Source: an uncultured Bacteroidales bacterium
Lineage (GTDB): Bacteria > Bacteroidota > Bacteroidia > Bacteroidales > F082
Direction: 5' to 3'
Assembly (NCBI GenBank): GCA_900317155.1
Contig: ONFO01000038.1
Coordinates: forward strand, 1-35,173
DNA: 35,173 bases
A model generated the notes under the pieces. That model did no database searches. It was not told where the DNA came from and was given only the letters and a program-made list of their open reading frames with translations. Shown here piece by piece: positions 1 through 11,101 of this stretch. The stretch's first letter is position 1. Every line of letters begins with the position of its first letter. Both the position numbers and the translations under genes were made by a program.

Positions 1-433
1 GTATCACTTTCCTTCCGTTTTCGAAAGACACGCTTTCCACGACAGACGGATGCGCCATCCCCCAACTGTCAATATGATAGAAAGTGTCGCCTACTGTCAA
101 TGTCATGTCGCAAAGCAACACTTCTTCCTCGTCAATCATGGGAAAATAGCGATATAGTCTTCCCGTCGAGGTTTCTTCGCGGAAATATAACTCTGCATTT
201 TCAAAAAAGAATCCTCGGGGAGTAGCATGAAGATAATCGTGTCCGTTGACGTGGACCGTATCGGCAGTATTGATTTCCATATAGCCAGTGCTGACCCAGT
301 CAATACAATATTGGAGCACATTCAATCGAGTGGAATCTGTTCCAAAATAGGATTCATACTCTTGCGCTTGCATCGTCACCCCTCCCGCCATCAGCAGCAG
401 GGCAAGCAGGGTGTAAAGTCTCATTGTTTTCAT
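1..433 (-). CDS. Secreted protein, partial (C-terminus beyond window)
   Basis: The ATG at 433 opens a frame that stays open to the left edge (144 codons), so the C-terminus is missing. The first 24 residues are a signal peptide (MKTMRLYTLLALLLMAGG..., ending MQAQ) almost identical to those of the genes starting at 2106, 5927 and 9312. The DNA encoding it shares 35 identical bases with the gene at 2106. The mature part starts EYESYFGTDS and has no motif I recognise. It is the last visible member of a same-strand run of T9SS-type cargo genes, so a sorting tail is expected beyond the edge, but that is inference. It begins about 160 bases downstream of the preceding gene, across a repeat-rich spacer. 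Confidence 0.8.
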   Translation of the reverse strand, partial: MKTMRLYTLLALLLMAGGVTMQAQEYESYFGTDSTRLNVLQYCIDWVSTGYMEINTADTVHVNGHDYLHATPRGFFFENAELYFREETSTGRLYRYFPMIDEEEVLLCDMTLTVGDTFYHIDSWGMAHPSVVESVSFENGRKVI

Positions 434-480
434 TATTCTATTGGTTTTAACTATTTATTTGTCTTATCAGTCTTATAAAT
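434..480 (-). repeat. About 10-bp periodic A/T-rich run in front of a start codon
   Basis: Read on the minus strand this stretch carries the motif TAAGAC/TAAGACTGA/AAATA at steps of about 10 bases and ends just before the ATG at 433. Similar runs sit just before the ATGs at 2106 and 2640. They may be simple-repeat expansions that keep the translation start region unstructured; no function is shown. Confidence 0.5.
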
Positions 481-505
481 CCCATCTCATGCGTCCGAAA
501 GGCTT

Positions 506-591
506 CCCCCCTCTGAGAGGGGGTGCCGCGCAGCGGCGAGGGAGTCCGTCGTAAGTACGTTAGCACGCATAACGATAGCACGAAAAAAACA
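506..591. repeat. Composite palindromic spacer element (copy 1)
   Basis: Two G/C-rich hairpins stand side by side: CCCCCTC/GAGGGGG (507-513 with 517-523) and GCCGC/GCGGC (525-529 with 533-537). They are followed by GGAGTCCGTCGTAAG, then repeats of ACGTTAGCACG/ACGATAGCACG and a poly-A run that touches the stop codon of the minus-strand gene ending at 592. Related copies occur at 2178-2314, 2641-2716 and 4280-4403. Neither hairpin is followed by a T-run on the minus strand, so a simple terminator is not supported. Confidence 0.6.
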
Positions 592-2106
592 CTACTTCAC
601 CATCACCTTCTCCAAAAAGATTCTCCCTTCCTTATCCCTAATCCTCACCAAATAAACCCCTTCCACCAAGCCACTCAAATCAATCTCATTCGTCCCCAGC
701 ACCGTCTTCACCACCTGACCAAGCGCATTGCAAACCTGCACTTCAGAAGCTTCCAATCCTTCAATGGTCACTTTCTCCCTTGCGGGGTTAGGATAGACAT
801 TGCAAGTTTGGGAGAGCATTGCGTTTTCAGATACAGCCCATCCCTCATCATCGAAAACGAGGAAAAACAACTCAGGCGGTGCACCCATAACCACACCACC
901 AACGGCCACGCCTCCGTTTTCAAGCGCAGTCAATTCACTACCAACACGAGCAAAACCTTCGGGTTCAAGACAGAAACGCTGCCAAATGATATTGAAATCA
1001 GCATCAATCTTCACCACCGAAACCTGTCCTGCAGGACTGCCGAAATAAAGCGTTTCGGGATCTTGTGTGCAATAGGCGAAATAAATGTCGCCATCGCCTG
1101 CCTTGGCAAGCCCTATCGGGAAGGCACAACCAACGAACATATTCCCGATTAATAGTTCGGGCTTGGTACGGAAATAACATGTATTCAATGCCTCTAAGGT
1201 GTTCTTCCGATAACGAGTCACGCGAACACCGTTGATATTGGTGTAGGGCCTGTCAAACCGAGAGGCGACCAAAAAAGTTTCCTCGTCCCAATCCAGCACC
1301 CTTTCCCTCATCCCGTACTCAAATTTGACATTCGAAGGTGCTCCGTTGGGTGTCAGCGTCTCTTTCAAATTCAACAAGGAATCAAACACATGAACATACA
1401 GGGTGTTGTGGTCGCTGTTATTTATTCCCCAAAAACAGTATTCAGTCGGCGACTCGTTGAAAGTGCCAAAACGATGCCCGCCAGCAGGATAATAATTGAT
1501 AGGGGAGCCATCCTTAGGCATCACCACATGGTCTTTCACCGTGCCGTCAATTCCTATGCGGTAATAATGCAACTCGTTGCGCATAGAGAGTGGGTAGCGT
1601 AGCATAATATCCCCATGTTCGTCAAGGAAATACGAATCCAATAGGGATGAAAAAATGGTGTCGGACAAAGGCACCCAAACTTCCTTTTCGGGATAGAAAT
1701 TAAGGTCATCGTCAAAAAAGGAGATGCGCAGGTCACAACGGCTTTCATCAAGGTTACGTACCACTTTAGCATAGATGTTGTCTTCGTCGAAAGGGTTGCG
1801 TTCCAACAGGAAATAGTTCAGGTCGTCATCCGCGATGAATACGGAATCAAGCAATACGGCTCCGTTTGGAGCGATTTTCAACAGCCTGTTGCCATAGTCG
1901 CCAAGGTATTGCCCTTGTTCGTCAATCTCAAACAGTTGGATGTTGGCGAGGATGTTTCCATCACGCAGTTGCATCATGTTGCGCAAATCCAAATCATACC
2001 AACCCGCATTATGATGGGCGATGGAATCGTAGTTCTGCGCTTGCATCGTCACCCCTCCCGCCATCAGCAGTAGCGCAAACAGGGCGTAAATTCTTGTTGC
2101 TTTCAT
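592..2106 (-). CDS. T9SS-sorted secreted protein, 504 aa
   Basis: The ATG at 2106 is chosen because it starts a clean signal peptide (MKATRIYALFALLLMAGGVT, then MQAQ); the in-frame ATG at 2130 would add eight polar residues. The C-terminus (from about residue 430) is a T9SS type A sorting tail: VYPNPA..., VQVCNALGQVVKTV, EGVYLVRI and RDKEGRIFLEKVMVK. The tail should route the protein through the outer membrane and be cut or anchored there (family knowledge). The roughly 400 residues between have recurrent Asp/Phe-rich, beta-type strands, possibly a propeller, but I cannot assign a domain. The terminal tail DNA is nearly identical to that of the genes ending at 2717 and 4404. Confidence 0.88.
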   Translation of the reverse strand: MKATRIYALFALLLMAGGVTMQAQNYDSIAHHNAGWYDLDLRNMMQLRDGNILANIQLFEIDEQGQYLGDYGNRLLKIAPNGAVLLDSVFIADDDLNYFLLERNPFDEDNIYAKVVRNLDESRCDLRISFFDDDLNFYPEKEVWVPLSDTIFSSLLDSYFLDEHGDIMLRYPLSMRNELHYYRIGIDGTVKDHVVMPKDGSPINYYPAGGHRFGTFNESPTEYCFWGINNSDHNTLYVHVFDSLLNLKETLTPNGAPSNVKFEYGMRERVLDWDEETFLVASRFDRPYTNINGVRVTRYRKNTLEALNTCYFRTKPELLIGNMFVGCAFPIGLAKAGDGDIYFAYCTQDPETLYFGSPAGQVSVVKIDADFNIIWQRFCLEPEGFARVGSELTALENGGVAVGGVVMGAPPELFFLVFDDEGWAVSENAMLSQTCNVYPNPAREKVTIEGLEASEVQVCNALGQVVKTVLGTNEIDLSGLVEGVYLVRIRDKEGRIFLEKVMVK

Positions 2107-2448
2107 TGTCCTATTGGTTTTATTAGTCATATTTGTCGTATTTGTCCTATAAGTCTCATTCTTCGCGTCCGGCAGTTCCCCCTCTGAGAGGGGGTGCCCA
2201 ACGGGCGGGGGAGTAAGGGTGCCGCAAAGCGGCTGGGGAGTCTAAGTCCCATCCGTCCTATCAGTCCCATTGTCGTTAGCACGATAGCACGATAGCACGT
2301 TAACACGCATAACGAAACTGAACAACTGAACAACTAAACAACTCCCAACTCTCAACTCTAAACTCTCCACTGACTCTAAACTCTCAACTCTAAACTCTAA
2401 ACTCTAAACTCTCAACTACTCTAAACTCTAAACTCTAAACTAAAAAAA
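2107..2448. repeat. 342-bp gene-free spacer made of five kinds of short repeat
   Basis: No gene is visible here. From left to right it holds: an approximately 10-bp periodic run before the ATG at 2106 (2107-2155); G/C hairpins at 2178-2194, 2196-2206 and 2221-2233; four or five units of GCACGATA/GCACGTTA (2274-2314); a 9-bp periodic AACTGAACA run (2315-2346); and a heptamer run (next entry). No Bacteroidota -7 motif was found, so the gene at 2106 has no obvious promoter of its own. Confidence 0.65.
2347..2441. repeat. Degenerate heptamer tandem repeat (CTCTAAA/CTCAACT)
   Basis: About 95 bases are built almost wholly from AACTCTA or AACTCTC units (period 7) with a few interruptions, directly downstream of the small lipoprotein gene. 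It is a microsatellite-like array, unusual in a bacterial spacer, and prone in principle to slippage. Confidence 0.8.
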
Positions 2449-2640
2449 TCACCTATCCAACTCTACTCCCGCACCAACCCACTCAATCAGCTCCATCTCC
2501 ATCCTCGTGCTATCCACCGTCGCCGTCCTGCTGCTTTCAGCGGGTGCATCCTTCGCCAGTACGGCCTTCTCCCGTCGGCATCCCGCCAGCAGCATCATGG
2601 CCGCCATCAAAACCAAAGCCCAAATCCTCATCGTTTTCAT
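2449..2640 (-). CDS. Small putative lipoprotein, 63 aa
   Basis: The reading frame starts MKTMRIWALVLMAAMMLLAG followed by Cys21, a clear lipobox (LLAGC), so the mature product would be a lipid-anchored peptide of only 43 residues. That peptide is charged and Ser/Thr-rich and ends with a short acidic/hydrophobic segment. I recognise no family. The first seven residues match the signal peptide of the partial gene at 433 (MKTMR), so it could be a decayed copy of a longer secreted-protein gene that kept only its start. It lies between repeat-rich spacers on the same strand as its neighbours, and its 3' side is the heptamer array. The coding call rests on the lipobox and a proper stop. Confidence 0.6.
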   Translation of the reverse strand: MKTMRIWALVLMAAMMLLAGCRREKAVLAKDAPAESSRTATVDSTRMEMELIEWVGAGVELDR

Positions 2641-2716
2641 AGTGTCTTATTATTAGTCTTATTAGTCCTATTAGTCCCCTTCGTAAGTACGTAAGTACGT
2701 TAGCACGAAAAAACAA
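2641..2716. repeat. Periodic spacer: TATTAGTC run plus GTAAGTACGTTAGCACG unit
   Basis: On the plus strand, 2646-2678 repeats TATTAGTC(C/T) at about 10-base steps directly before the lipoprotein ATG. It is followed by CGTAAGTACGTAAGTACGTTAGCACG-type sequence and a poly-A run that reaches the stop codon of the gene ending at 2717. It is a shorter relative of the elements at 506-591 and 4280-4403, lacking the G/C hairpins. Confidence 0.55.
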
Positions 2717-4204
2717 CTACCTCACCATCACCTTCTCCAAAAAGATTCTTCCTTCCTTATCCCTAATCCTCACCAAATAAACCCCATCCGCCAAATCCGC
2801 TACATCAATCTCATTCGTCCCCCGCACTATTTTCACCATCTGCCCAAGTGCATTATAAACCCGCACCTCATCAACCTCAACACCCTCAATCCGAACAACC
2901 CCATTGGCAGGATTGGGATAAACAACAGCCTCAAAACGATTCTCTTCAACCCCCGTGGTATTCTTCTCCAAGCATTCAGACCACGAAATCGCTGATTCCA
3001 CGCCGTTGATCACATGGCTGACACCCCATTTGTAAAGACCGTCATCCAAGTCAGCCCATTGTCCGTCAAGGTAGGAATTGACCTCCAGCTTTCTTGCAAT
3101 CAACTCCATGTCCTGGCCGTCGCAAAGGGCGCGATACACCTTGAAATGCGGAAAACCGCTGTCATAATACATAAGCATCTGCATCAGCCAAGCGCCACCG
3201 CCAAGGTCGGTTTGCTGCCATCCGTCTTCGGTTTTCCACCAAGTGCCGTCGTCGCTCGAACCACCATTGCCGTAGGGAGCCGGTGTCTCGTGGCCTTCGT
3301 CGGTACTCCATACCATCCAGATGCTTCCTGCCTCTAAACCAACCTCCACCCAGTCATCCAATTCAAAATACTGATAATCGCCCAGTCCTGGCGTCACATC
3401 CACGGTAATTGACGACATCGCCTCCCCAGGCGCATCTTCACCGCCCAAGTATATGGTACACGTATAGGTGCCGCCCGTCAGTCCTTCAGCATCGCTGTAG
3501 AGGGCAACATCCGTAATGACTCCACTCGTCTGCTCAGTCCATTTCATGGCCCATTCACAGGCATTGCCGCCGTCACCCATGCTGCCACGGTAACCGTCAT
3601 ATCCATAATACAACCAACTTTGCGGCTGATAAAAAGAGCCATCGTAAACAAAATGGATGCAGTCGATATACCAGGTGTCGTCCAGGGCACTCTCTTCACC
3701 GTCTTTGGCATACTCCCACTTGAAGGTGTGTTCGCCTTCCGTGACATCATACCGAAATTCATGCCAAGAGCCTTGTCCCGACTGGTTTGTCATGCACTCG
3801 CCATCGATATAGAACTTACCCAAATCCCAGTTGTTTTCCGAGGAGATTTTGCCATAAAACCGCATCTCGCAATCACGTGGAATCGGCATCTTGATTTGAA
3901 TGGCCGAAGTCGAATTGTCGACGCCCGCATTCGACGCCCGCATGGAGAAGGAACCGTCAAAAGTCTGGCTGTCGGTAATCTCCCAAGGATAATCGGAAAC
4001 GGCATTGTTCCAGTCGAAAAGGCTGAAATCACCCGTTTCAAAATGATCGACGAATTGGCTCTCCCACTGAACCCTGACTGTTTGGTTGCTGATAACAGTG
4101 GCATCCACCTTCATCGGGTCTTCCCATCTGTTGGGAACTTGTGCAAAAAGGTTGCTCGCCATAAGGCCAAGCCCAACCATAGCAATAAGTCTAATGTTTT
4201 TCAT
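2717..4204 (-). CDS. T9SS-sorted secreted protein with jelly-roll-like domain, 495 aa
   Basis: Start at 4204 gives the signal peptide MKNIRLIAMVGLGLMASNLF ending FAQ. The mature N-terminal half (about residues 50-185: DHFETGDFSLFDW..., DSQTFDGSFSMRASN, KFYIDGE, WYIDCIHFVYDG) looks like a concanavalin/MAM-like beta-sandwich of the kind used in adhesion or glycan binding. A second beta-rich part follows, then a segment like a fibronectin-type domain (HFKVYRALCDGQ...KWGVSHV). The last 70 residues are a T9SS tail ending RDKEGRIFLEKVMVR. One tail segment (DNA 2865-2923) differs at only two of 59 positions from the gene ending at 5924, although the mature domains are unrelated. Confidence 0.87.
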   Translation of the reverse strand: MKNIRLIAMVGLGLMASNLFAQVPNRWEDPMKVDATVISNQTVRVQWESQFVDHFETGDFSLFDWNNAVSDYPWEITDSQTFDGSFSMRASNAGVDNSTSAIQIKMPIPRDCEMRFYGKISSENNWDLGKFYIDGECMTNQSGQGSWHEFRYDVTEGEHTFKWEYAKDGEESALDDTWYIDCIHFVYDGSFYQPQSWLYYGYDGYRGSMGDGGNACEWAMKWTEQTSGVITDVALYSDAEGLTGGTYTCTIYLGGEDAPGEAMSSITVDVTPGLGDYQYFELDDWVEVGLEAGSIWMVWSTDEGHETPAPYGNGGSSDDGTWWKTEDGWQQTDLGGGAWLMQMLMYYDSGFPHFKVYRALCDGQDMELIARKLEVNSYLDGQWADLDDGLYKWGVSHVINGVESAISWSECLEKNTTGVEENRFEAVVYPNPANGVVRIEGVEVDEVRVYNALGQMVKIVRGTNEIDVADLADGVYLVRIRDKEGRIFLEKVMVR

Positions 4205-4279
4205 CGTATTATATTTATGTTTGTTTTTCTCTTTCCCCCTCAAAATGAGTGGCCTAAGGCTAGAAAAGTTCTCTTCGTC

Positions 4280-4403
4280 AGTACGTTAGCTCGCATACCG
4301 ATCCCCCTCTAAGAGGGGGTCAGGGGGAGTCCGTCGTAAGCACGTTAGCACGAAATGCAAAGCATTCAACGAAGTTAATAACGTTAGCACGAAAAAAAAA
4401 CAA
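4280..4403. repeat. Composite palindromic spacer element (copy 2)
   Basis: The hairpin CCCCCTCT/AGAGGGGG (4303-4310 with 4312-4319) is followed by GGGAGTCCGTCGTAAGCACG, TTAGCACG units, a small hairpin AATGC/GCATT (4354-4366) and a poly-A run that reaches the stop codon of the gene ending at 4404. Order and sequence match copy 1 at 506-591, so this is a dispersed unit placed at the 3' end of tail-bearing genes. Confidence 0.6.
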
Positions 4404-5927
4404 CTATCTCACCATCACCTTCTCCAAAAAGATTCTTCCTTCCTTGTCCCTAATCCTCACCATATAAACCCCTTCCGCCAAACCATCCACACTAATTTCA
4501 TTAGAGTTCCGCACGGTCTTCACCAACTGGCCAAAAGTGTTATAAACCTGCACTTCAACGGCTTCCGTTCCATTGATGTAAACATACTCATTCGCAGGAT
4601 TAGGTGAACAGGTTACAGCAGAATCGCTATCATTTTCTTCTATGGCATCGAACCCTGTGCCATCGTTCATAAACACTTCAAGCCATGATTCCCCCGTCCA
4701 TTTAGTATGCAATACGAGTAAGTCATCAAAACCATCATCGTTTAAGTCGCGTACATCAAAATGACGAACAAACTCGTTTGTTTCATTCTCCAATGGGAAA
4801 TACACGGGGGAACCAAACTCAAAAGTTCCATTTCCTTCAAACACATAATACCCCCAATATCCCGCTCTGATTCGGTAGTCGCCTAATTGTATGATGATAT
4901 CGGGGTGTTCATCGCCGTTGTAATTCACTAATTTCATGGTGTTAGGTGAAATATCATACCCGGTGATGGGCATGGAAAACGCAACGGAATCCATCTTTTG
5001 GAATGTTTCATCTCTAAGGTTCTTGAAAACCCAAAGATGTGAATAAAGATGTGAATTATAATCCGAGCGCCCCTCAACCACATCTTTCCATCCGTCACCA
5101 TCAATGTCAAAAACAACCATTCCATTAGACGAATAGCCGTCATAAACATTAGAATGAAGATATTCATACCGTGGAATCAAACTATCAGTGGAATAGATAA
5201 TGTTTGCACCGTCAACAATGTCATCTTTACTGTCGTTGTTCAAGTCGCTAACCACAGGAACATGAAGTGAGCCCATCAAAAAGTCGGTATCAAAATTACC
5301 AGTCCCATCGTTGTAGGCATAACCTAAAGCCGAAATAGTATTGGCGTGATAATCGTTAGCGACAGCCACATCAGGAAACAAATCACCGTTGAAATCACCT
5401 GACACCAATCCCAAATAATACGGATTGTTTAAGTAGTACGGTTGGTTGTTCCACCAAATCACTTCCGGTAGAATCAATGCAGTTTCGGTAAAACGGTCAA
5501 ACCTTCCGTATCCATTATTGTAATTAATTCTAAAATAGCATGTATCGTCAAGCATGCCCTCATGATCGGCATAGACATACGAGGCTATATCGATATTGCC
5601 ATCCATATCAAAGTCCTCTAAAAGGAAAAACAGTTGTGGTTGCTCGTAACACATGTGCAAACTGGGTTTTGAACTGCTTATGTTTTCATGACATTCAAGA
5701 TGTCCTTCACCGTCATTGAGATAAATGGAGAATATCACCTCGTTATCTGGGCTGTTGAGTCGGCTAACGACCACATCGGCAAATCCGTCGTTGTTGACAT
5801 CGCCGACCTTGATACTGCGCGATTCGGGAAGCAATTCGTACATCTCGCTACGCACTTGCCCTTGCATCGTCACCCCTCCCGCCATCAGCAGGAACGCAAC
5901 CAGGGTGTAAAGCATTATGTTTTTCAT
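4404..5927 (-). CDS. FG-GAP/VCBS repeat secreted protein with T9SS tail, 507 aa
   Basis: The signal peptide (MKNIMLYTLVAFLLMAGGVT..., ending MQGQ) is followed by seven FG-GAP/VCBS-type repeats. Each holds a calcium-loop motif: VGDVNNDGFADVVV, LEDFDMDGNIDIAS, VSGDFNGDLFPDVAV, VSDLNNDSKDDIVD, VFDIDGDGWKDVVE, LVNYNGDEHPDIII and VRDLNDDGFDDLLV. Seven such repeats suggest a beta-propeller, a fold used for binding at the cell surface. The final 70 residues are a T9SS tail ending RDKEGRIFLEKVMVR. Its ATG overlaps the stop of the upstream gene in an ATGA tetranucleotide, so it is probably the last gene of a coupled three-gene operon. Its tail is mosaic: the NSNEISV block matches the upstream neighbour, but the terminal block matches the genes ending at 2717 and 592. 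Confidence 0.9.
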   Translation of the reverse strand: MKNIMLYTLVAFLLMAGGVTMQGQVRSEMYELLPESRSIKVGDVNNDGFADVVVSRLNSPDNEVIFSIYLNDGEGHLECHENISSSKPSLHMCYEQPQLFFLLEDFDMDGNIDIASYVYADHEGMLDDTCYFRINYNNGYGRFDRFTETALILPEVIWWNNQPYYLNNPYYLGLVSGDFNGDLFPDVAVANDYHANTISALGYAYNDGTGNFDTDFLMGSLHVPVVSDLNNDSKDDIVDGANIIYSTDSLIPRYEYLHSNVYDGYSSNGMVVFDIDGDGWKDVVEGRSDYNSHLYSHLWVFKNLRDETFQKMDSVAFSMPITGYDISPNTMKLVNYNGDEHPDIIIQLGDYRIRAGYWGYYVFEGNGTFEFGSPVYFPLENETNEFVRHFDVRDLNDDGFDDLLVLHTKWTGESWLEVFMNDGTGFDAIEENDSDSAVTCSPNPANEYVYINGTEAVEVQVYNTFGQLVKTVRNSNEISVDGLAEGVYMVRIRDKEGRIFLEKVMVR

Positions 5928-7405
5928 CGTACCGTGATTTTGTTTGTGTAAACTTTACCTTCAGCATCCGCAATCCTCACCAAATAAACCCCTTCCGCCA
6001 AACCTTCCACACTAATTTCATTAGAGTTCCGCACCCTCTTCACCACCTGCCCCAAAGCATTATAAACCAAAACCTCATCAACCTCAACGCCCTCAATCCG
6101 CACAACCCCATTGGCAGGATTGGGATAAACCGACAATAAATCAGCAGCCCCATTGTTTTCGTCAACAGCTTCAATGCCGTCCTCAAACATTGGGATATAG
6201 TAAGGCTCATAAATAGGCTTCCACCGTTTGTAAATAGAAGGATCCTCTTGCATTTCCACCCAAGCGTTGAGGGCATCCAACATGATGTCAGTAGAAGTGG
6301 AGCCTACCATCACGCTTGTTTCCAATTGGCACGGACCAGTAGGAAGAAACTCCACACATTCCGAGGCCAACCCCTGATTGTTGCCCAAAAGCCCTACCTG
6401 TCCGTAGTTGTTCCAAATATGGCCATAGCAGTTTTCCACCACACAACCTTTCATATTGTAACCAACTACGGAACCTTTGTATTCCATAAAACCATTCAAC
6501 CTGGCAAGGACTTCGGCAAAGCAATTCTTTACCACGGCTTTGCCGCCCTGACTATCTGATTCACTGAAGCAGACAATCCCGCCAAACGACTGGGCACTAT
6601 ACGAGCCTCTCACGCTTCCATAGAAGAAGCAATTAACCACCTCCGCATCAGCATACCCGCCTTCCGAAAGATTGTGGTACACGATACCTCCTCCGTTCCT
6701 TGAAACCGAATAGTCATTGTCAGCATAGCAATAGGCGCAATTCCTTACAACGGAGTTCCTGTTCAATCCGACAATACTGCCACATTGGTCATCTCCTCCA
6801 GCACTTCCAGCCCTTATTTTCACAATGCAACCATCCACTACAGAGAGGGAATCGGAGACACCCACCAAACACCCATCAAAAAACTCGCTGCCGTTGAGGT
6901 GATGGCCTGTAACAAACAAGCCTGAATTGACAACAAAATCTTTCACCGTTCCGTGTTTGAGACATCCGAACATGCCAATATCAAAAGCGGGATCATACTC
7001 TGGAGAATTATACGCGACATACAAGCCGTCAATCGTATGACCGCCACCGTCAAAAGTACCCATGAAGGGATGCTCGCGGCTGCCGATGGGTGAAAAACGC
7101 CGATGCGCCCCAGCGTCAAGGTCGATGTCGCAAGTGAGCCTCGCGGTGCGTCCGTCGAAATTGTCAGGCTCGCAACCGTTCTGCCCGTTCACTGCACTTA
7201 TCAGCCAAGCCAAGCCTTCGGGCGTGGAGATTTCCGCATTGCCGTTGGCATCCATCACAAAGCCATTAGGCTGCACTGTGACAGAATCAATCCACAATGG
7301 ATATTCTTCGATATAATGCGGCCAAGGGTCGTCTTTGTTTTGTGCCTGCATTGCCACCCCAAGCATCATAAGGGCAACCAAAGCAATAAGTCTATTGTTT
7401 TTCAT
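5924..7405 (-). CDS. GLUG/beta-helix-like secreted protein with T9SS tail, 493 aa
   Basis: The signal peptide is MKNNRLIALVALMMLGVAMQ then AQ. The body fits a right-handed beta-helix or GLUG-motif protein: STPEGLAWLISAVNG, RLTCDIDLDAGAHRRFSPIG, MGTFDGGGHTIDGLYV, IGMFGCLKHGTVKDFVV, GSIVGLNRNSVVRNCAY, GGIVCFSESD and VVENCYGHIWNN recur at 25-40 residue steps. Such folds often act as adhesins or bind polysaccharide. The T9SS tail ends DAEGKVYTNKITVR, a different terminal block from that of the next gene. Both ends are coupled: the start overlaps the stop of the upstream gene (ATGA at 7402-7405) and the stop overlaps the start of the downstream one (ATGA at 5924-5927). Confidence 0.88.
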   Translation of the reverse strand: MKNNRLIALVALMMLGVAMQAQNKDDPWPHYIEEYPLWIDSVTVQPNGFVMDANGNAEISTPEGLAWLISAVNGQNGCEPDNFDGRTARLTCDIDLDAGAHRRFSPIGSREHPFMGTFDGGGHTIDGLYVAYNSPEYDPAFDIGMFGCLKHGTVKDFVVNSGLFVTGHHLNGSEFFDGCLVGVSDSLSVVDGCIVKIRAGSAGGDDQCGSIVGLNRNSVVRNCAYCYADNDYSVSRNGGGIVYHNLSEGGYADAEVVNCFFYGSVRGSYSAQSFGGIVCFSESDSQGGKAVVKNCFAEVLARLNGFMEYKGSVVGYNMKGCVVENCYGHIWNNYGQVGLLGNNQGLASECVEFLPTGPCQLETSVMVGSTSTDIMLDALNAWVEMQEDPSIYKRWKPIYEPYYIPMFEDGIEAVDENNGAADLLSVYPNPANGVVRIEGVEVDEVLVYNALGQVVKRVRNSNEISVEGLAEGVYLVRIADAEGKVYTNKITVR

Positions 7406-8202
7406 CGTTTCGTGATTTTGTTCGTGTAAACTTTTCCTTCAGCATCCATAATGCGCAGCAGATAAACCCCTTCCGCCAATCCCTCAACATCAATCTCATT
7501 CGTCCCTCGCACCGTCTTCACCATCTGCCCAAGGGCATTGTAAACCTTCACCTCGGAAGTCTCCATACCTTCAATAACAACCCTGTCCCTTGCCGGATTG
7601 GGATAAACGCCAATGCTTTCAGCTTCTTCTTCGACCCCATCATACGAACCTTCAATAAAAATGTCATCAATACAGATGGCGGAATATCCTGTACTGCTGA
7701 AGTGACGGAAAGCAATATAGACCTCCTGACCGGCATAATTGGAAATGTCAACTGTATACCGATACCAATTGCCATGACGTTTTCCCTCGCATTTGGCCAT
7801 CAAAGTCCATTCACGAAAGTTGGCAAAAGCCAACGGGTCGTCATTGACAGTAGTGGAGATGGCCACCGCAAAATGTTCCGCACTGCTGTACTCATCCAAA
7901 GCGCAGGCATAGAAGCTGAGAATGGGATATTGTGAATTTAAGGATATTTGTGGTGAGACGAGATAGTTGTCAGGTGTCAAAGGGTTGCCAGTGGTAGGGT
8001 TCACTGAATAAGATAGTAACACTCCATCGGAATCCAAGTGTCCCAATCCGTTGGCAGACTGCTGTTGCCAGTTGTGGCCATCGCCGTCGGCATCAATAGT
8101 GGTCCAGCCTTGAAGGGTGCCGTCTTCAAAGTCGAACGAGATTTGCGCTTGCATCGCTCCGCATACCAGCAATGCGGCAAGAATAAATGATAGTTTCTTC
8201 AT
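7402..8202 (-). CDS. Cleaved-adhesin (choice-of-anchor J)-like T9SS protein, 266 aa
   Basis: After the signal peptide (MKKLSFILAALLVCGAMQAQ) the mature protein opens ISFDFEDGTLQGWTTIDADG and continues LTPDNYLVSPQISL, YPILSFYACA, YTVDISNYAGQEVYIAFRH and ICIDDIFIE. This is the typical pattern of the cleaved-adhesin / choice-of-anchor J domain (about residues 20-180) known from gingipain adhesin regions and other T9SS cargo. The C-terminal 70 residues are a sorting tail ending DAEGKVYTNKITKR. It is the first gene of the operon 8202-7405-5927, with a promoter-like TAACTTTGC just upstream. The product is predicted to be secreted or surface-bound and to bind protein or glycan; its substrate is unknown. 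Confidence 0.9.
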   Translation of the reverse strand: MKKLSFILAALLVCGAMQAQISFDFEDGTLQGWTTIDADGDGHNWQQQSANGLGHLDSDGVLLSYSVNPTTGNPLTPDNYLVSPQISLNSQYPILSFYACALDEYSSAEHFAVAISTTVNDDPLAFANFREWTLMAKCEGKRHGNWYRYTVDISNYAGQEVYIAFRHFSSTGYSAICIDDIFIEGSYDGVEEEAESIGVYPNPARDRVVIEGMETSEVKVYNALGQMVKTVRGTNEIDVEGLAEGVYLLRIMDAEGKVYTNKITKR

Positions 8203-8233
8203 AGGTTATTCTGTTTTAATGATTTGTCGTTTG

Positions 8234-8241
8234 CAAAGTTA
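8234..8241 (-). promoter_or_regulatory. Candidate Bacteroidota -7 element for the three-gene T9SS cargo operon
   Basis: On the minus strand it reads TAACTTTG followed by C, matching TAnnTTTG, 31 bases upstream of the ATG at 8202. A good TTTG -33 box is not evident. Confidence 0.5.
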
Positions 8242-8250
8242 CACATTAGT

Positions 8251-9312
8251 TCATTCCCTCAGCACTTTCCGTGTGAGGCACACTTCCGCATTGCGGATCC
8301 TCAGCTCGTTGGGCAACACAACTTGAACCAAATTGCGTGTAGGGTTCGGATAGACTTCCATCTCTACATTGTCTTCTTGTTCGTCAACTCCATCAAAGTC
8401 AACCTCAATGAAATTGGTGAACTCCGACCAATACGGCGCACTTCGATAGGCTTCAATCGTTCCCATGGGGATATAGACGGGAATATCGCGGTTAGTGTTG
8501 AGAAAAGCTCCTTCCTCAAGATAGGGAGGGTCAATGGCCTTCACCGTCATTTGCTCAAGGAAGAACAAACGGCAGAAAGCGTCGTCCCCAATAAACGTAA
8601 TCGTTGAAGGAAGCGTCAGTTCTGTGGCATATTGCAGGAAGTCGAAGGCAGAATGAAGTATATTGCTTACGCCTTCAGGGATATCGACGGCCTTAAACAT
8701 GTAACAATTCTCAAAACCTCCATCGATATATACCATTTGTGGCGAAAGGTATAATGTGCCGTCAAATCTGCAATCCTCAAATGCCTCTGGCGTAACGTAT
8801 CTAACAGATTCGGGGATTTTCAGGTCGCCCCTGAAGCCATAGCATTGCAAAAAGGTCAAAGCTTCAATGACGGTCAAAGACTCCGACAAGGTCAAGCTGG
8901 TGAACCTGTCACAATCCATGAACGCCCTGAAACCAATCGTTTCAACGGAATTGGGAATCACCAACGGACCAGTGAAACGGCAATGCGTAAAAGCGTTTAT
9001 CCCAATGTTTCTAACCGTGTTGGGAATAGACAAAGGTCCGTTGAAATGAAGACCTTCTAACGATCCAAATGCCGACATTCCTAAGGAGACAACGGCGTAG
9101 TTCTGGCCATTAAAAACCACCGAGTCAGGAATAGTAACTCCTCCAAAAAAATCTTCACATTGCACAAGTTCAACTTCGGGCGGGTTTTGGCTTGTGACCG
9201 TGTAACGCAAAGACTGTCCCGTCTCGCAGACGGCACTGAAGGTTTGGGCTTGCATAACCCCTCCCGCCATCAACAGGAGCACAAGCAGGGTGTAAATCTT
9301 CAAGTTTTTCAT
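8251..9312 (-). CDS. BspA-like leucine-rich-repeat protein with broken T9SS tail, 353 aa
   Basis: The start at 9312 gives a signal peptide (MKNLKIYTLLVLLLMAGGVM, then QAQ); the ATG at 9324 adds only MCTK. The body is a ladder of LRR_5 repeats at about 23-residue steps: IPNTVRNIGINAFTHCRF, IPNSVETIGFRAFMDCDRF, LSESLTVIEALTFLQC, IPESVRYVTPEAFEDCRF, IPEGVSNILHSAFDF and LPSTITFIGDDAFCRL. These mark the BspA family of surface adhesins. The C-terminus begins a normal sorting tail (MEVYPNPTRNLVQVV) but then runs into LPNELRIRNAEVCLTRKVLRE and stops, about 50 residues short and without the G-VY-VRI...K end. Export through T9SS is therefore doubtful. Confidence 0.87.
   Translation of the reverse strand: MKNLKIYTLLVLLLMAGGVMQAQTFSAVCETGQSLRYTVTSQNPPEVELVQCEDFFGGVTIPDSVVFNGQNYAVVSLGMSAFGSLEGLHFNGPLSIPNTVRNIGINAFTHCRFTGPLVIPNSVETIGFRAFMDCDRFTSLTLSESLTVIEALTFLQCYGFRGDLKIPESVRYVTPEAFEDCRFDGTLYLSPQMVYIDGGFENCYMFKAVDIPEGVSNILHSAFDFLQYATELTLPSTITFIGDDAFCRLFFLEQMTVKAIDPPYLEEGAFLNTNRDIPVYIPMGTIEAYRSAPYWSEFTNFIEVDFDGVDEQEDNVEMEVYPNPTRNLVQVVLPNELRIRNAEVCLTRKVLRE
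8260..8306. repeat. Palindrome-rich insert at the 3' end of the LRR gene
   Basis: CTGAGG-type ends (plus strand CCTCAG at 8258-8263 and 8299-8304) bracket two small hairpins: GTGTG/CACAC (8271-8275 with 8279-8283) and CCGCA/TGCGG (8286-8290 with 8292-8296). The segment encodes the abnormal LRIRNAEVCLTRKVL ending in place of a sorting tail, as a small palindromic element would if it had replaced the tail. Confidence 0.4.
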
Positions 9313-9316
9313 TTTT

Positions 9317-9465
9317 GTACACATTTATACATGTATGCGCACAAAATTATATCAAAATTCCACAGAAATTCCAACCGTAAGGCACGAGTACACATTTTTC
9401 TACCTTGCTAAATATCCAATCGCCTGTTAGATAGTGGATTGGGAAACGATAGAGTACACATTTTT
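9317..9465. repeat. Three GTACACATTT copies between regulator and LRR gene
   Basis: GTACACATTT occurs at 9317-9326, 9388-9397 and 9454-9463; the last two extend to GAGTACACATTTTT. A perfect 10-bp palindrome, ATACATGTAT, lies at 9327-9336. The spacer separates the LuxR-type regulator gene from the cargo cluster, so these could be operator sites, but only the repetition is observed. Confidence 0.45.
9342..9349 (-). promoter_or_regulatory. Candidate -7 element for the LRR gene
   Basis: The minus strand reads TAATTTTGT, matching TAnnTTTG, 30 bases upstream of the chosen ATG at 9312. It lies within the GTACACATTT repeat region. The -33 box is weak. Confidence 0.4.
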
Positions 9466-11101
9466 ATTCCACAAGTACCGAAAACTGGCCCAAATCCAGT
9501 TTCTTGTAGAGCGCAGAGCGGTACTTTCGGACAGTGTTTTCACTCAATCCAAGCAGCTCCGCCTCCTCCTTCGCACGCAACCGCAGGAAGGTTAGGATGG
9601 CCAATTTACGCTCCGTCTCGCTTAAGTCGGGGCAAACCTTCTGCAACTTTTCCGTGGCTCGAGGATAGGTCGTTTCAAATTCGGCCATAATGCGCTGCAG
9701 CTTGTCGTCTTCTTCACTATGGTAAATGGCCTTCGCACGTTGCTGCAGCACTTCCTTGGTGTGTTGTGCTGCCTGTTCCATCTTTGTCTGAAGCTCACGC
9801 TCCGTTTCGCCGTGCCGTTGCAAGGCCTCATTCAACCGCCGCTGTGTCTCGGCCTCGTTTGCCGCCATGCGTTTCCTGTGGCTGCGCCGCATCAATATGA
9901 CAACTACAGCCGCCAGCACCACCAATGCCATTACCATTGCAAGCGTCATCCTCACGGCCTTCCTCCGTTCACGGAGCGAAGCCGCCTCCTGATTCTCCTG
10001 CAAATAGTTCTGGAACATGTCATTCAGCTTCGAGACTTGTGCCTGCTTTTCGGCTGCCATTGTGGTTTTTTCTATGAGCATTGTGGCATATTGGTTGGCT
10101 TTCAGCGTGTCGCCTTCGCTCATTGCAATCTCACGCAAAGCCCTTGCTGAAACGCTTGCCATGCCAGACTCTTTTTCGAATTCAAGCACAGGCTCAAAAT
10201 AGGCCTTTGCGGAATCGTATTGCCCCATATCTTGGTAAATACCGCCAATGATCATGTATCGGTTGAGTCTTTCCGTTTCATTTGTTGCTTGCGCCGTCAT
10301 CCTTTTCAAGCTATCCAAGGAGTTCACGGTATCGTTGTGGGAAGAGTACTCAAACAACGCCCTAACCGAAATCAAATCCCTATATAACAAAGCGTTTCTT
10401 TCGGTCAAAAGCTCCAACGCCTTTTCATAGCAACAGGCTGCGCTGTCCGCTTCATTCAGCTTGTCATATTGTTTTCCCAAATGATAAAGGATGTTGGCAA
10501 TCTTGTCCGGCGAAACCTGCGCAATTCTGTCGTATGCTAAAGCCTCCTTGTAGCAATAGATGGCAGGTTCTTGCATGAATTGTGCAGAAAACAATTCCCC
10601 AAGGCGGTTATAGGTCAAAGCCATAAACCACGCTTTCTTGTCCACCAGTTCATTCTCGGCAAAGTGGCTCTCCATCATCCGCAAAGTGTTGAGGTATTCC
10701 TGGCAAGCCTCAATAAGGCTGTCGCGCTCATAATACCCCACACCATTAATATAATGCGCCCGCGCCGCCAAAAAACCGTCATCGATGGAATCAAAATAAC
10801 GAACCGCCTTCAGCAGCTCCTTCCTGTTGCTCTGCTTATAGAAATTCTTATAAAGCAGCTCCGCAATCAGCACCTGGCAATAATGCCCCTCAAACACATC
10901 CAAGCTATCCGCAGCCTCACTCCCCGCAAACTCCAACATCACCGCCAGCGCACTGTCGGGATGGTGCCACATTAGGATGTCAATGGCCGCCAATTCTTGG
11001 GTCGGCCCTTCGACAGGCTCAGGGACCTCAGCTGGTTTGGAGCAAGCCACCAGCATGGCAAGTCCAACTATTAAGCTTACTATGTGCAAATAGCATTTCA
11101 C
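9464..11101 (-). CDS. Membrane-anchored TPR protein with C-terminal LuxR-type HTH, 545 aa
   Basis: The N-terminus is a lipoprotein-type signal (IVGLAMLVAC, Cys20). Residues about 40-365 are alpha-helical with TPR-like units (AIYCYKEALAYDRIAQ, NILYHLGKQYDKLNEADSAACCYEKALELL, IGGIYQDMGQYDSAKAYFEPVLEFE). A single transmembrane helix (about 382-406) is followed by an arginine-rich coiled coil. The last 55 residues (LSETERKLAILTFLRLRAKEEAELLGLSENTVRKYRSALYKKL) form a LuxR/GerE-like helix-turn-helix. In this Bacteroidota architecture an extracytoplasmic TPR sensor is joined to a cytoplasmic DNA-binding tail. It lies directly upstream of the cargo cluster on the same strand, so it may control it. 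Residues 26-33 (VPEPVEGP) are encoded by an inserted dispersed repeat. Confidence 0.85.
   Translation of the reverse strand: MKCYLHIVSLIVGLAMLVACSKPAEVPEPVEGPTQELAAIDILMWHHPDSALAVMLEFAGSEAADSLDVFEGHYCQVLIAELLYKNFYKQSNRKELLKAVRYFDSIDDGFLAARAHYINGVGYYERDSLIEACQEYLNTLRMMESHFAENELVDKKAWFMALTYNRLGELFSAQFMQEPAIYCYKEALAYDRIAQVSPDKIANILYHLGKQYDKLNEADSAACCYEKALELLTERNALLYRDLISVRALFEYSSHNDTVNSLDSLKRMTAQATNETERLNRYMIIGGIYQDMGQYDSAKAYFEPVLEFEKESGMASVSARALREIAMSEGDTLKANQYATMLIEKTTMAAEKQAQVSKLNDMFQNYLQENQEAASLRERRKAVRMTLAMVMALVVLAAVVVILMRRSHRKRMAANEAETQRRLNEALQRHGETERELQTKMEQAAQHTKEVLQQRAKAIYHSEEDDKLQRIMAEFETTYPRATEKLQKVCPDLSETERKLAILTFLRLRAKEEAELLGLSENTVRKYRSALYKKLDLGQFSVLVE
11004..11028. repeat. Dispersed repeat inserted in frame (VPEPVEGP)
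   Basis: The 25 bases starting GGCCCTTCGACAGGCTCAGG match, from memory, a short dispersed repeat found in many bacterial genomes that often translates as PEPVEG. Here it lies between the lipobox Cys and the first helices of the regulator, a linker likely to tolerate eight extra residues. Confidence 0.6.

Follow-up and report, generated by a model that had tools for sequence, protein, structure and literature searches.

Shared ends and unrelated middles in the T9SS cargo arrays of an uncultured Bacteroidales bacterium point to reshuffling at tail-signal junctions

The stretch of DNA analysed here (the window) comprises the 35,173 nucleotides of contig ONFO01000038.1 (assembly GCA_900317155.1) and stems from an uncultured Bacteroidales bacterium of the F082 lineage. 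Positions 1-9312 hold seven co-oriented genes for secreted proteins (g1 to g7), all on the minus strand, with a regulator gene at the head of the array:

2-433, minus strand: g1, N-terminal half of a secreted protein that runs off the contig; signal 362-433
592-2106, minus strand: g2, secreted protein; signal 2035-2106, T9SS tail about 594-798 (PF18962/TIGR04183)
about 2449-2640, minus strand: small lipoprotein-like ORF inside the array, lipobox recognised by eye
2717-4204, minus strand: g3, secreted protein; signal 4139-4204 (second type), tail 2717-2923 (PF18962)
4404-5927, minus strand: g4, FG-GAP propeller protein; signal 5856-5927, tail 4404-4604 (PF13517, PF18962)
5855-6131, minus strand: junction block of g5 tail, ATGA overlap and g4 signal
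5924-7405, minus strand: g5, secreted protein; signal 7340-7405, tail 5924-6130 (PF18962; beta-helix/GLUG-like below threshold only)
7340-7608, minus strand: junction block of g6 tail, ATGA overlap and g5 signal
7402-8202, minus strand: g6, cleaved-adhesin/choice-of-anchor J protein; signal 8143-8202, tail 7402-7608 (PF07675, NF038128, PF18962)
8251-9312, minus strand: g7, BspA-type leucine-rich repeat protein; signal 9244-9312 (shared type) (PF13306)
9313-9463, minus strand: leader between the regulator and the first cargo gene, conserved together with regulator and signal in the related genome G002
9464-11101, minus strand: regulator at the array head with TPR repeats and a C-terminal LuxR-like HTH (below cut-off)

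The original prediction, in which seven same-strand genes for secreted proteins share DNA at their ends and have unrelated middles, is borne out by the comparison, and five of the six complete genes carry a T9SS type A sorting tail. The N-termini are hydrophobic and signal-like according to a simple hydropathy score and inspection by eye. By eye, the main signal type (LLALLLMAGGVTMQAQ-like) was recognised in g1, g2, g4 and g7, a second, related type in g3 and g5, and a type of its own in g6. The 30-base stretch of the signal region that had been claimed to be exact at three places is indeed identical at 368-397, 2041-2070 and 5862-5891, and the exact run reaches the claimed 35 nt for the first two copies (363-397) and 31 nt in either of the remaining pairings. 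With at most 3 mismatches, a 27-base version of this word occurs at 12 places in the whole genome, all on contigs C9, C41, C62 (the window) and C63, and the reversed control pattern gave 0 matches in the same search.

At the 3' side, g2-g6 scored 45.2-50.9 bits against PF18962 (Pfam, cut-off 27) and 42.8-50.8 against TIGR04183 (NCBIfam, cut-off 23). The tails end in VMVR, VMVK, ITVR or ITKR, and four further tail copies align to that of g2 over 228 nt at 60-79%. The expected sorting tails were therefore found on g2-g6, each of which has both a start and a tail, but not on g7, which has no sorting-domain match in Pfam (PF18962) or NCBIfam. The copies of g7 in three relatives measure 392-393 aa, about 39 codons more than the 353 aa of the window copy, whose tail is therefore probably truncated. 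Of g1, cut by the contig end, only the N-terminal half lies on the window; a C-terminal part with a T9SS tail was located terminally on contig C42, and 59 bases are common to C42 and the window end. The middles are unrelated, with FG-GAP repeats in g4, a cleaved adhesin in g6 and BspA-type LRRs in g7. Outside the tail, Pfam gave nothing above cut-off for g2 and g3 and only sub-threshold matches (GLUG, DUF6383) for g5; no protease family matched in g2-g7.

We have searched the genome for sorting tails with PF18962, which yielded 225 candidates and at least 150 scored places, and compared 139 of 150 genes (short, partial, signal-less or N-containing ones were dropped). Contigs C9, C41, C42, C62 and C63 were treated as the island, and the 2280 pairs that combine an island gene with an outside gene were counted apart. 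Signals were at least 80% identical in 34/171 island pairs, 7/7140 outside pairs and 2/2280 mixed pairs, and tails at least 75% identical in 14/171, 19/7140 and 4/2280, respectively. Mature-domain homology was present in 6/171 island, 339/7140 outside and 96/2280 mixed pairs. Ends that are equally similar in all T9SS genes, an outcome that had been named as contrary to the idea, were not found; the similar signals are concentrated on five contigs.

It could be argued that the genes arose by duplication and that the demands of T9SS and Sec have kept signals and tails alike, the middles having diverged beyond recognition. In line with this, the tails are functional domains with PF18962 matches at 150 or more places in the genome, and gene order is partly conserved. 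Protein constraint, however, does not fix synonymous sites. In the 165 island pairs without mature homology the signals agree at 0.64 of four-fold sites (0.87 in the 32 pairs with signals at least 80% identical) versus 0.28 in 6801 non-island pairs. For the tails of island pairs without mature homology the value is 0.45 (0.64 in the 13 pairs with tails at least 75% identical) versus 0.32 in non-island pairs. Moreover, between species the supposedly constrained tails differ and the middles are near-identical (e.g. g3), which is the reverse of what constraint predicts. Synonymous agreement and reversed conservation together rule out protein constraint as sole cause, and we regard duplication under constraint as highly improbable.

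The comparison between species involved 313 genes and 253 cross-genome pairs, of which 150 had a mature identity of at least 0.85: 110 island pairs, 39 control pairs and one mixed pair (tail drop 0.17), which was kept out of the island/control comparison. Mature matches in the relatives were followed only if they reached at least 80% and at least 250 nt, and regulator and junction DNA matches of at least 250 nt were taken in; the labels island and control were set, for the relatives, by the query through which a locus was found. Mature domains are mostly 90-99% DNA-identical across the species of the genus, and the tails differ in type. For instance, the mature domain of g3 is 96.6-98.4% identical in nine other assemblies, with tail values of 0.69-0.98 in the eight in which the tail is readable. 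For g2 in the relative G097 the mature domain is 92-93% identical, the tail 0.43-0.51 and the signal 0.65-0.69, varying with the way of counting. The mature DNA of g5 is 89-94% identical in six related genomes and that of g1 85-98% in five, where the C-termini are different.

The tail was more than 0.15 less similar than the mature domain in 61/110 island pairs versus 4/39 control T9SS pairs; these pairs are not independent, and the island loci of the relatives were chosen by DNA similarity to the whole of 1-9312, ends included. Counted by gene family, the median tail drop exceeded 0.10 in 16/22 island versus 2/11 control families (Fisher p=0.004). Strong rising changepoints were present in 93/110 island and 13/39 control pairs, and strong changepoints at most 260 nt from the stop in 87/110 and 6/39, respectively, the breakpoints being scattered over the tail and not at one site. 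The signals behave differently, as they drop by more than 0.15 in 7/110 island versus 9/39 control pairs. Thus signal swapping between orthologs is not enriched in the arrays and was rejected as the main process; tails are exchanged far more than signals. Tail swapping also occurs in 2/11 control T9SS families and in the one mixed family, and is therefore not exclusive to these arrays. One C27_28690 pair, which lies below the 0.85 limit, is likewise decoupled (mature 0.81 versus tail 0.59). Decoupling is absent from some island families, namely the g7-like family (0/3 pairs) and a trio in G023, G088 and G059 (0/3).

In 43/74 island versus 1/34 control genes the tail is nearer to some other gene of the same genome, one not paired with it through the mature domain, than to one or more of the orthologs, a test that favours the island because fewer genes per genome were available around the control loci. 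Such a pattern would also be expected if the tails were homogenised within a genome by patches of gene conversion, without exchange of cassettes or neighbours. The changed tails, however, go along with a changed downstream neighbour: in the island a tail drop of more than 0.15 was found in 54/90 pairs with another downstream neighbour versus only 2/12 in an unchanged neighbourhood, and among control genes in 2/14 and 1/17, respectively (8/110 island and 8/39 control pairs, which offered no neighbour to compare, were left out). Furthermore, gene content differs between species at the array loci, which conversion patches alone would not yield. Conversion confined to the tails therefore seems unlikely. 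Signals track the upstream neighbour more clearly in the control genes than in the island.

Identical order and content among strains, the other outcome that had been named as contrary, was not found either, as both content and ends vary among the relatives. Gene order is partly kept (g7>g6>g5>g4>g3 in G021, g6>g5>g4>g3 in G094), so that part of the array has been inherited or transferred as a block. The sister species G002 is about 90% identical to the window in DNA through the regulator and the leader into the signal and unrelated thereafter, so that the same regulator, leader and signal peptide are joined to another mature domain; G088 and G093 likewise share a 5' end and are then unrelated. 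Block 7340-7608 returns in G002 at 85-86% identity, flanked by middles that are unrelated on either side, and block 5855-6131 recurs without its flanking middles in several related genomes (72-84%, matches limited to the block). The predicted swapping of middles is partly supported, recombinant structures being directly visible between species, either the same mature domain with other ends or the same 5' end with another mature domain. On C63 a direct repeat of 102 nt (tail end, ATGA, signal) is exact, its copies lying 1842 nt apart. The regulator has one membrane helix, recognised by eye, and belongs to a paralogous family (48 reading frames, some being fragments of a single gene and at least one entering twice through overlapping loci). 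A regulator stands directly ahead of T9SS-type cargo in seven arrays, others being cut by contig ends.

The evidence consists of draft assemblies compared between species, in which single chimeras are possible. Short-read assemblers might have fused different genes at shared signal or tail k-mers and so produced false mosaics; the window end is in fact an assembly fork, where C62 has exactly 99 bases in common with C9 and 59 with C42, and four of the genome's regulator copies are cut off where their contigs end. Within the window and against the other island stretches, on the other hand, the longest exact repeats are 44 nt (regulator), 42 nt (signals) and 38 nt (inside the cluster), not counting g1 and its C9 copy (99, 95 and 73 nt), and are shorter than the overlaps of 59-99 bases at the fork. 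Chimeras via within-genome exact repeats were rejected for the window interior on this ground, 44 nt being the longest among the island stretches compared. In addition, the g3 mature domain carries different tails in assemblies from several projects, and decoupling is also seen between the least fragmented genomes (at most about 50 contigs), though only 3/10 pairs go beyond a tail drop of 0.15. We consider artefact quite unlikely as the explanation.

The explanation that we consider likely is that the arrays of T9SS cargo genes are reshuffled, partly between species, by homologous recombination at the junctions of tail, spacer and signal; not all of the alternatives are mutually exclusive with it. 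The cluster is one of several such arrays, many of them with a TPR/LuxR-type, apparently membrane-spanning regulator at the head. Unrelated mature domains sit between homologous 5' ends (leader and signal) and homologous 3' ends (sorting tail), so that every junction of a tail, a spacer or ATGA overlap and the next signal forms a short homology block. RecA-type recombination between these blocks, within the genome and with DNA of other species of the genus, may delete, duplicate, insert or replace cassettes consisting of a mature domain and part of its ends. As all genes point in the same direction, a crossover between two tails would provide a new tail and a new downstream neighbour and leave secretion intact. 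The array would presumably be driven by its regulator, and a fast change of the secreted and surface repertoire may be the benefit.

Constant ends and a single orientation would also suit a programmed, site-specific switching of cassettes by a dedicated recombinase, i.e. phase or antigenic variation within one strain, and the assembly forks within or beside cargo genes could represent alternative arrangements in one population. The breakpoints are nevertheless spread over the tail rather than placed at one site, and a shufflon-type tyrosine recombinase was not found beside the array, as none of the six PF00589 matches in the genome lies on C9, C41, C42, C62 or C63; this makes a dedicated switch very unlikely. 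A broader form of the homologous recombination proposed here is tentative and rather doubtful. Several regulator-headed expression arrays per genome would serve as docking sites for T9SS cargo cassettes common to the species of the genus, and cassettes would be loaded and lost at standardised tail-signal junctions so often that arrangements coexist in one population and cells of one strain differ in their secreted repertoire.

Constant ends around a variable middle and homologous recombination are characteristic of cassette-type antigenic variation, as in vlsE of Borrelia and similar systems. The arrays resemble these in their conserved flanks and variable middles and, on the reading proposed here, in homologous recombination; the array evidence lies between species, no design of silent cassettes and an expression site was recognised, and most of the array genes come with both a start and a tail of their own.

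Closer parallels exist among T9SS cargo. In Tannerella forsythia, the six KLIKK protease genes lie in two clusters and combine unlike catalytic domains with nearly identical T9SS C-terminal domains. The authors of that study propose a fusion of protease genes to a common set of signal, N-terminal and C-terminal segments; neither recombination nor shuffling occurs as a word in its main text (PMC4404884). The arrays likewise encode secreted proteins with unlike main domains and similar C-terminal ends. Whereas in the KLIKK system a single, hardly varying C-terminal domain is carried by the proteases of one species, the arrays have several tail types, many kinds of mature domain and regulators, and the comparison between species gives evidence that a gene's tail changes; no protease family matched in g2-g7, and the tails do not end in KLIKK. 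In Porphyromonas gingivalis, surface proteins exported by the T9SS are reported to be diversified by rearranged domains and exchanged alleles, and the resulting mosaics do not follow the SNP phylogeny (PMC5266723). This resembles the arrays in that T9SS-exported proteins are diversified by recombination or exchange. There, however, adhesin domains vary within a few large proteins, next to allelic variants of others (PMC5266723), whereas in the multigene arrays it is the entire mature domain, between a common signal and tail, that varies. Keyword searches of the literature on T9SS in rumen F082, or joining T9SS with domain shuffling, returned nothing.

With at least 150 T9SS sorting tails in this genome alone, the arrays offer a concrete and testable answer to the question how a lineage changes its cargo while secretion stays intact. 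The shared ends would double as address labels and as recombination homology, and new mature domains would therefore arrive already secretable. At such array loci, ortholog assignment, domain trees and assembly from short reads can all be misleading.

Two minor elements of the locus may be added. An intergenic palindrome-like word has only 4 matches with at most 3 mismatches in the genome, two of them in the window, and is in that form therefore not a genome-wide repeat. The small lipoprotein-like ORF recurs in the loci of related genomes at 89-95% DNA identity.

Contig C62 of the draft genome G000 (65 contigs, 3.80 Mb, completeness 96.8%) is 35173 bases long and is spanned entirely by the window G000:C62:1-35173. 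The seven genes for secreted proteins within window 1-9312 all lie on one strand, in line with the original prediction; it is the minus strand.

Genes of the cluster (window coordinates; tail, the C-terminal T9SS sorting domain)
g1, 2-433, minus strand: cut by the contig end
g2, 592-2106, minus strand: type A sorting tail, the sole match above cut-off
g3, 2717-4204, minus strand: type A sorting tail, the sole match above cut-off
g4, 4404-5927, minus strand: FG-GAP propeller; type A sorting tail
g5, 5924-7405, minus strand: type A sorting tail; otherwise sub-threshold matches alone
g6, 7402-8202, minus strand: cleaved adhesin/choice-of-anchor J; type A sorting tail
g7, 8251-9312, minus strand: BspA-type LRR; no type A sorting tail match

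The mature parts between signal and tail are indeed unrelated, g4 encoding a propeller, g6 an adhesin and g7 an LRR protein, with g2 and g3 lacking any match besides the tail, and an exact 30-base stretch of the signal was confirmed at all three of its predicted positions. The claim of shared sorting tails held for five genes (g2-g6); g7 gave no tail match and g1 is incomplete. Relative to three relatives g7 is shorter by ~39 codons within the tail (window 8251-8330), with loss of the PF18962 match, and the shortened LRR protein may be sorted poorly. The spacers at 480-600, 2140-2440 and 4250-4400 are composed of short recurring words, among them CTCTAAACT, TTAGCACG and TTAGTCCTA, together with a palindrome-like CCCCTCTGAGAGGGGG element, the 22-base form of which has 4 matches genome-wide.

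Sorting tails occur in at least 150 places in G000. When up to 3 mismatches are allowed, a 27-base part of the signal stretch is found in 12 places, all on C9, C41, C62 and C63, which together with C42 are taken as the island. A comparison of 139 usable T9SS genes revealed that similar ends are not spread evenly over the genome, but are commoner within the island: signals were at least 80% identical in 34 of 171 island pairs, 7 of 7140 outside pairs and 2 of 2280 mixed pairs, and tails at least 75% identical in 14, 19 and 4 pairs, respectively. Mature homology was detected in 6/171, 339/7140 and 96/2280 pairs. The shared ends are common DNA beyond common protein demands, because four-fold degenerate sites agree above background: in island pairs lacking mature homology signals agreed at 0.64 and tails at 0.45 (0.87 and 0.64 in pairs chosen for similar ends), versus 0.28 and 0.32 in non-island pairs.

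Relatives were sought in 99 genomes (G000 included) of what we term the F082 genus, F082 presumably being its GTDB name. A DNA search with window 1-9312 gave matches in 55 of these, G000 itself among them (E <= 1e-20). The close relatives for g3 are uncultured Bacteroidales/Bacteroidia assemblies, including 'bacterium F082', RGIG1487 (goat abomasum), UBA3868 and several RUG assemblies, which we take to be rumen genomes. Mature DNA was 96.6-98.4% identical for g3 in 9 other assemblies, 95.5-98.6% for g7 in the three with a complete gene, 98.1-99.6% for g6 in four (a 79% form occurs in G079 and G083), and 85-98% for g1 in five, one across 254 of 357 bases. For g2 it was 93% in G097 and 76% in G077, and the relatives of g4 reach 72-75% only. 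The window's elongation factor G (EF-G) gene shares 92-97% identity with that of G002, G003, G018, G021, G078, G084 and G094; other T9SS genes are 72-93% identical in six of these seven genomes, with none available for G002. The g3 identity lies above that of EF-G in G003, G018, G084 and G094 and equals it in G021 (97% both), and its excess in four genomes points to recent between-species transfer of at least part of the genes. Gene order is kept in part in G021 and G094.

The tails were found to be decoupled from these middles. The g3 tail identity ranges from 0.69 to 0.98, with differing C-termini, in the 8 assemblies with a readable tail; g2 of G097 combines a mature identity of 0.93 with 0.44 for the tail and 0.67 for the signal; and one cargo gene shared by G087, G021 and G002 has tails of 77-86% versus mature DNA of 99.3-99.6%. 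Island loci, located with a query that itself contains the shared ends, were compared with control T9SS families outside the island (two stretches, 11 families), all assemblies being drafts. Among pairs with a mature identity of at least 0.85, which are not mutually independent, tail identity fell more than 0.15 below it for 61/110 pairs from the island versus 4/39 from the control set. Counted by family, the median drop exceeded 0.10 in 16/22 versus 2/11 (Fisher p = 0.004). The two control families concerned, C18_100152 and C27_21967, are decoupled as well, and therefore tail exchange is not confined to the island arrays. A strong rising likelihood changepoint was present for 93/110 pairs from the island and 13/39 from the control set; in 87 and 6 of these, respectively, it falls no more than 260 nt from the stop, with positions scattered along the tail. 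Moreover, 43 of 74 island genes and 1 of 34 control genes have one or more orthologs whose tail is less similar to theirs than that of another own-genome gene not paired by mature domain, a comparison in which relatives were sampled in part and control loci held fewer genes.

A crossover between the tails of co-oriented genes would bring in a new downstream neighbour along with the new tail. Tail drops above 0.15 were seen in 54 of 90 island pairs with a different downstream neighbour versus 2 of 12 with the same one (control: 2/14 and 1/17). For signals, neighbour-linked change is weak in the island and stronger in the control genes: drops above 0.10 occurred in 12/74 island pairs whose upstream neighbour differs and 1/27 in which it is unchanged (rank test on drops, p = 0.06), and in 7/11 and 1/16 control pairs. 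Tails are exchanged more than signals, which would fit their lengths (about 200 versus 70 nt). Several matches in other genomes are confined to a block of tail, ATGA overlap and next signal (7340-7608 or 5855-6131). Two copies of such a block on C63, exact across 102 nt, lie 1842 nt apart in the same orientation, an obvious substrate for losing or gaining the intervening gene.

A direct case joins the 5' end of the array to a different mature domain. In G002 the ortholog of the regulator that heads the array (89-91% protein identity), the leader and the first-gene signal align with the window at ~90%; the alignment breaks off within the signal or at its end (window 9245-9259), after which a different mature domain follows, not the LRR protein. 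G088 and G093 agree at 93-98% over the aligned stretch of regulator end and leader; an insert follows in G093, the signal resumes, and the genes differ beyond. The regulator has TPR repeats, a LuxR-like C-terminus below the Pfam cut-off and, by eye, one membrane helix. The compared loci contain 48 regulator reading frames, of which 26 have a signal-bearing frame 99-155 nt downstream; for 17 (14 among those 26) the next gene bears a recognisable version of the shared signal, as read from the sequences. G000 holds 21 regulator matches at E <= 1e-30, some being parts of one gene; seven regulators have a T9SS-type-tail gene directly next (the g7 tail being shortened), four are cut at contig ends, and after some others (C26, C48) a different, shorter kind of secreted gene comes next. 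Where a regulator copy matched as two pieces, the first ~107 residues are 59-79% identical and the remainder 35-60% (window 10788-11101 versus 9986-10774); the 5' part is distinct at the DNA level too, and the regulators may themselves be mosaics.

The open-licence literature searched yielded no account of T9SS cargo arrays whose tails are exchanged. The nearest described cases found are the KLIKK proteases (PMC4404884) and the P. gingivalis domain rearrangement (PMC5266723).

Nearly identical tails also occur in other groups of genes. Tails are 96% identical in C49_29330 and C49_32363, the middles of which have no detected homology, and 88-93% in a family on C49, C53 and C56 with mature protein identities of 25-36% (57% in one pair). 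These groups lie at the stretches L013, L018, L020 and L068, with partial copies (L009, L010) at the ends of C55 and C28. Near regulator copies, C24_73877, C49_140071 and C37_11045 (L012, L014, L049) have another signal type in common and tails of 83-92%; the middles are homologous in two and unrelated in the third.

At the window end C62 and C9 are exact over 99 bases and ~95% identical across ~470, and then wholly different; C42 has 59 bases in common with both, and this fork may reflect two copies or two arrangements. The L001 end (C9), the L078 end (C55) and the L007 start (C19) share the same 97-104 bases, perhaps a mobile-element end or a recombination product, leading to three different continuations, among which are a T9SS tail and a regulator-like frame that is truncated.
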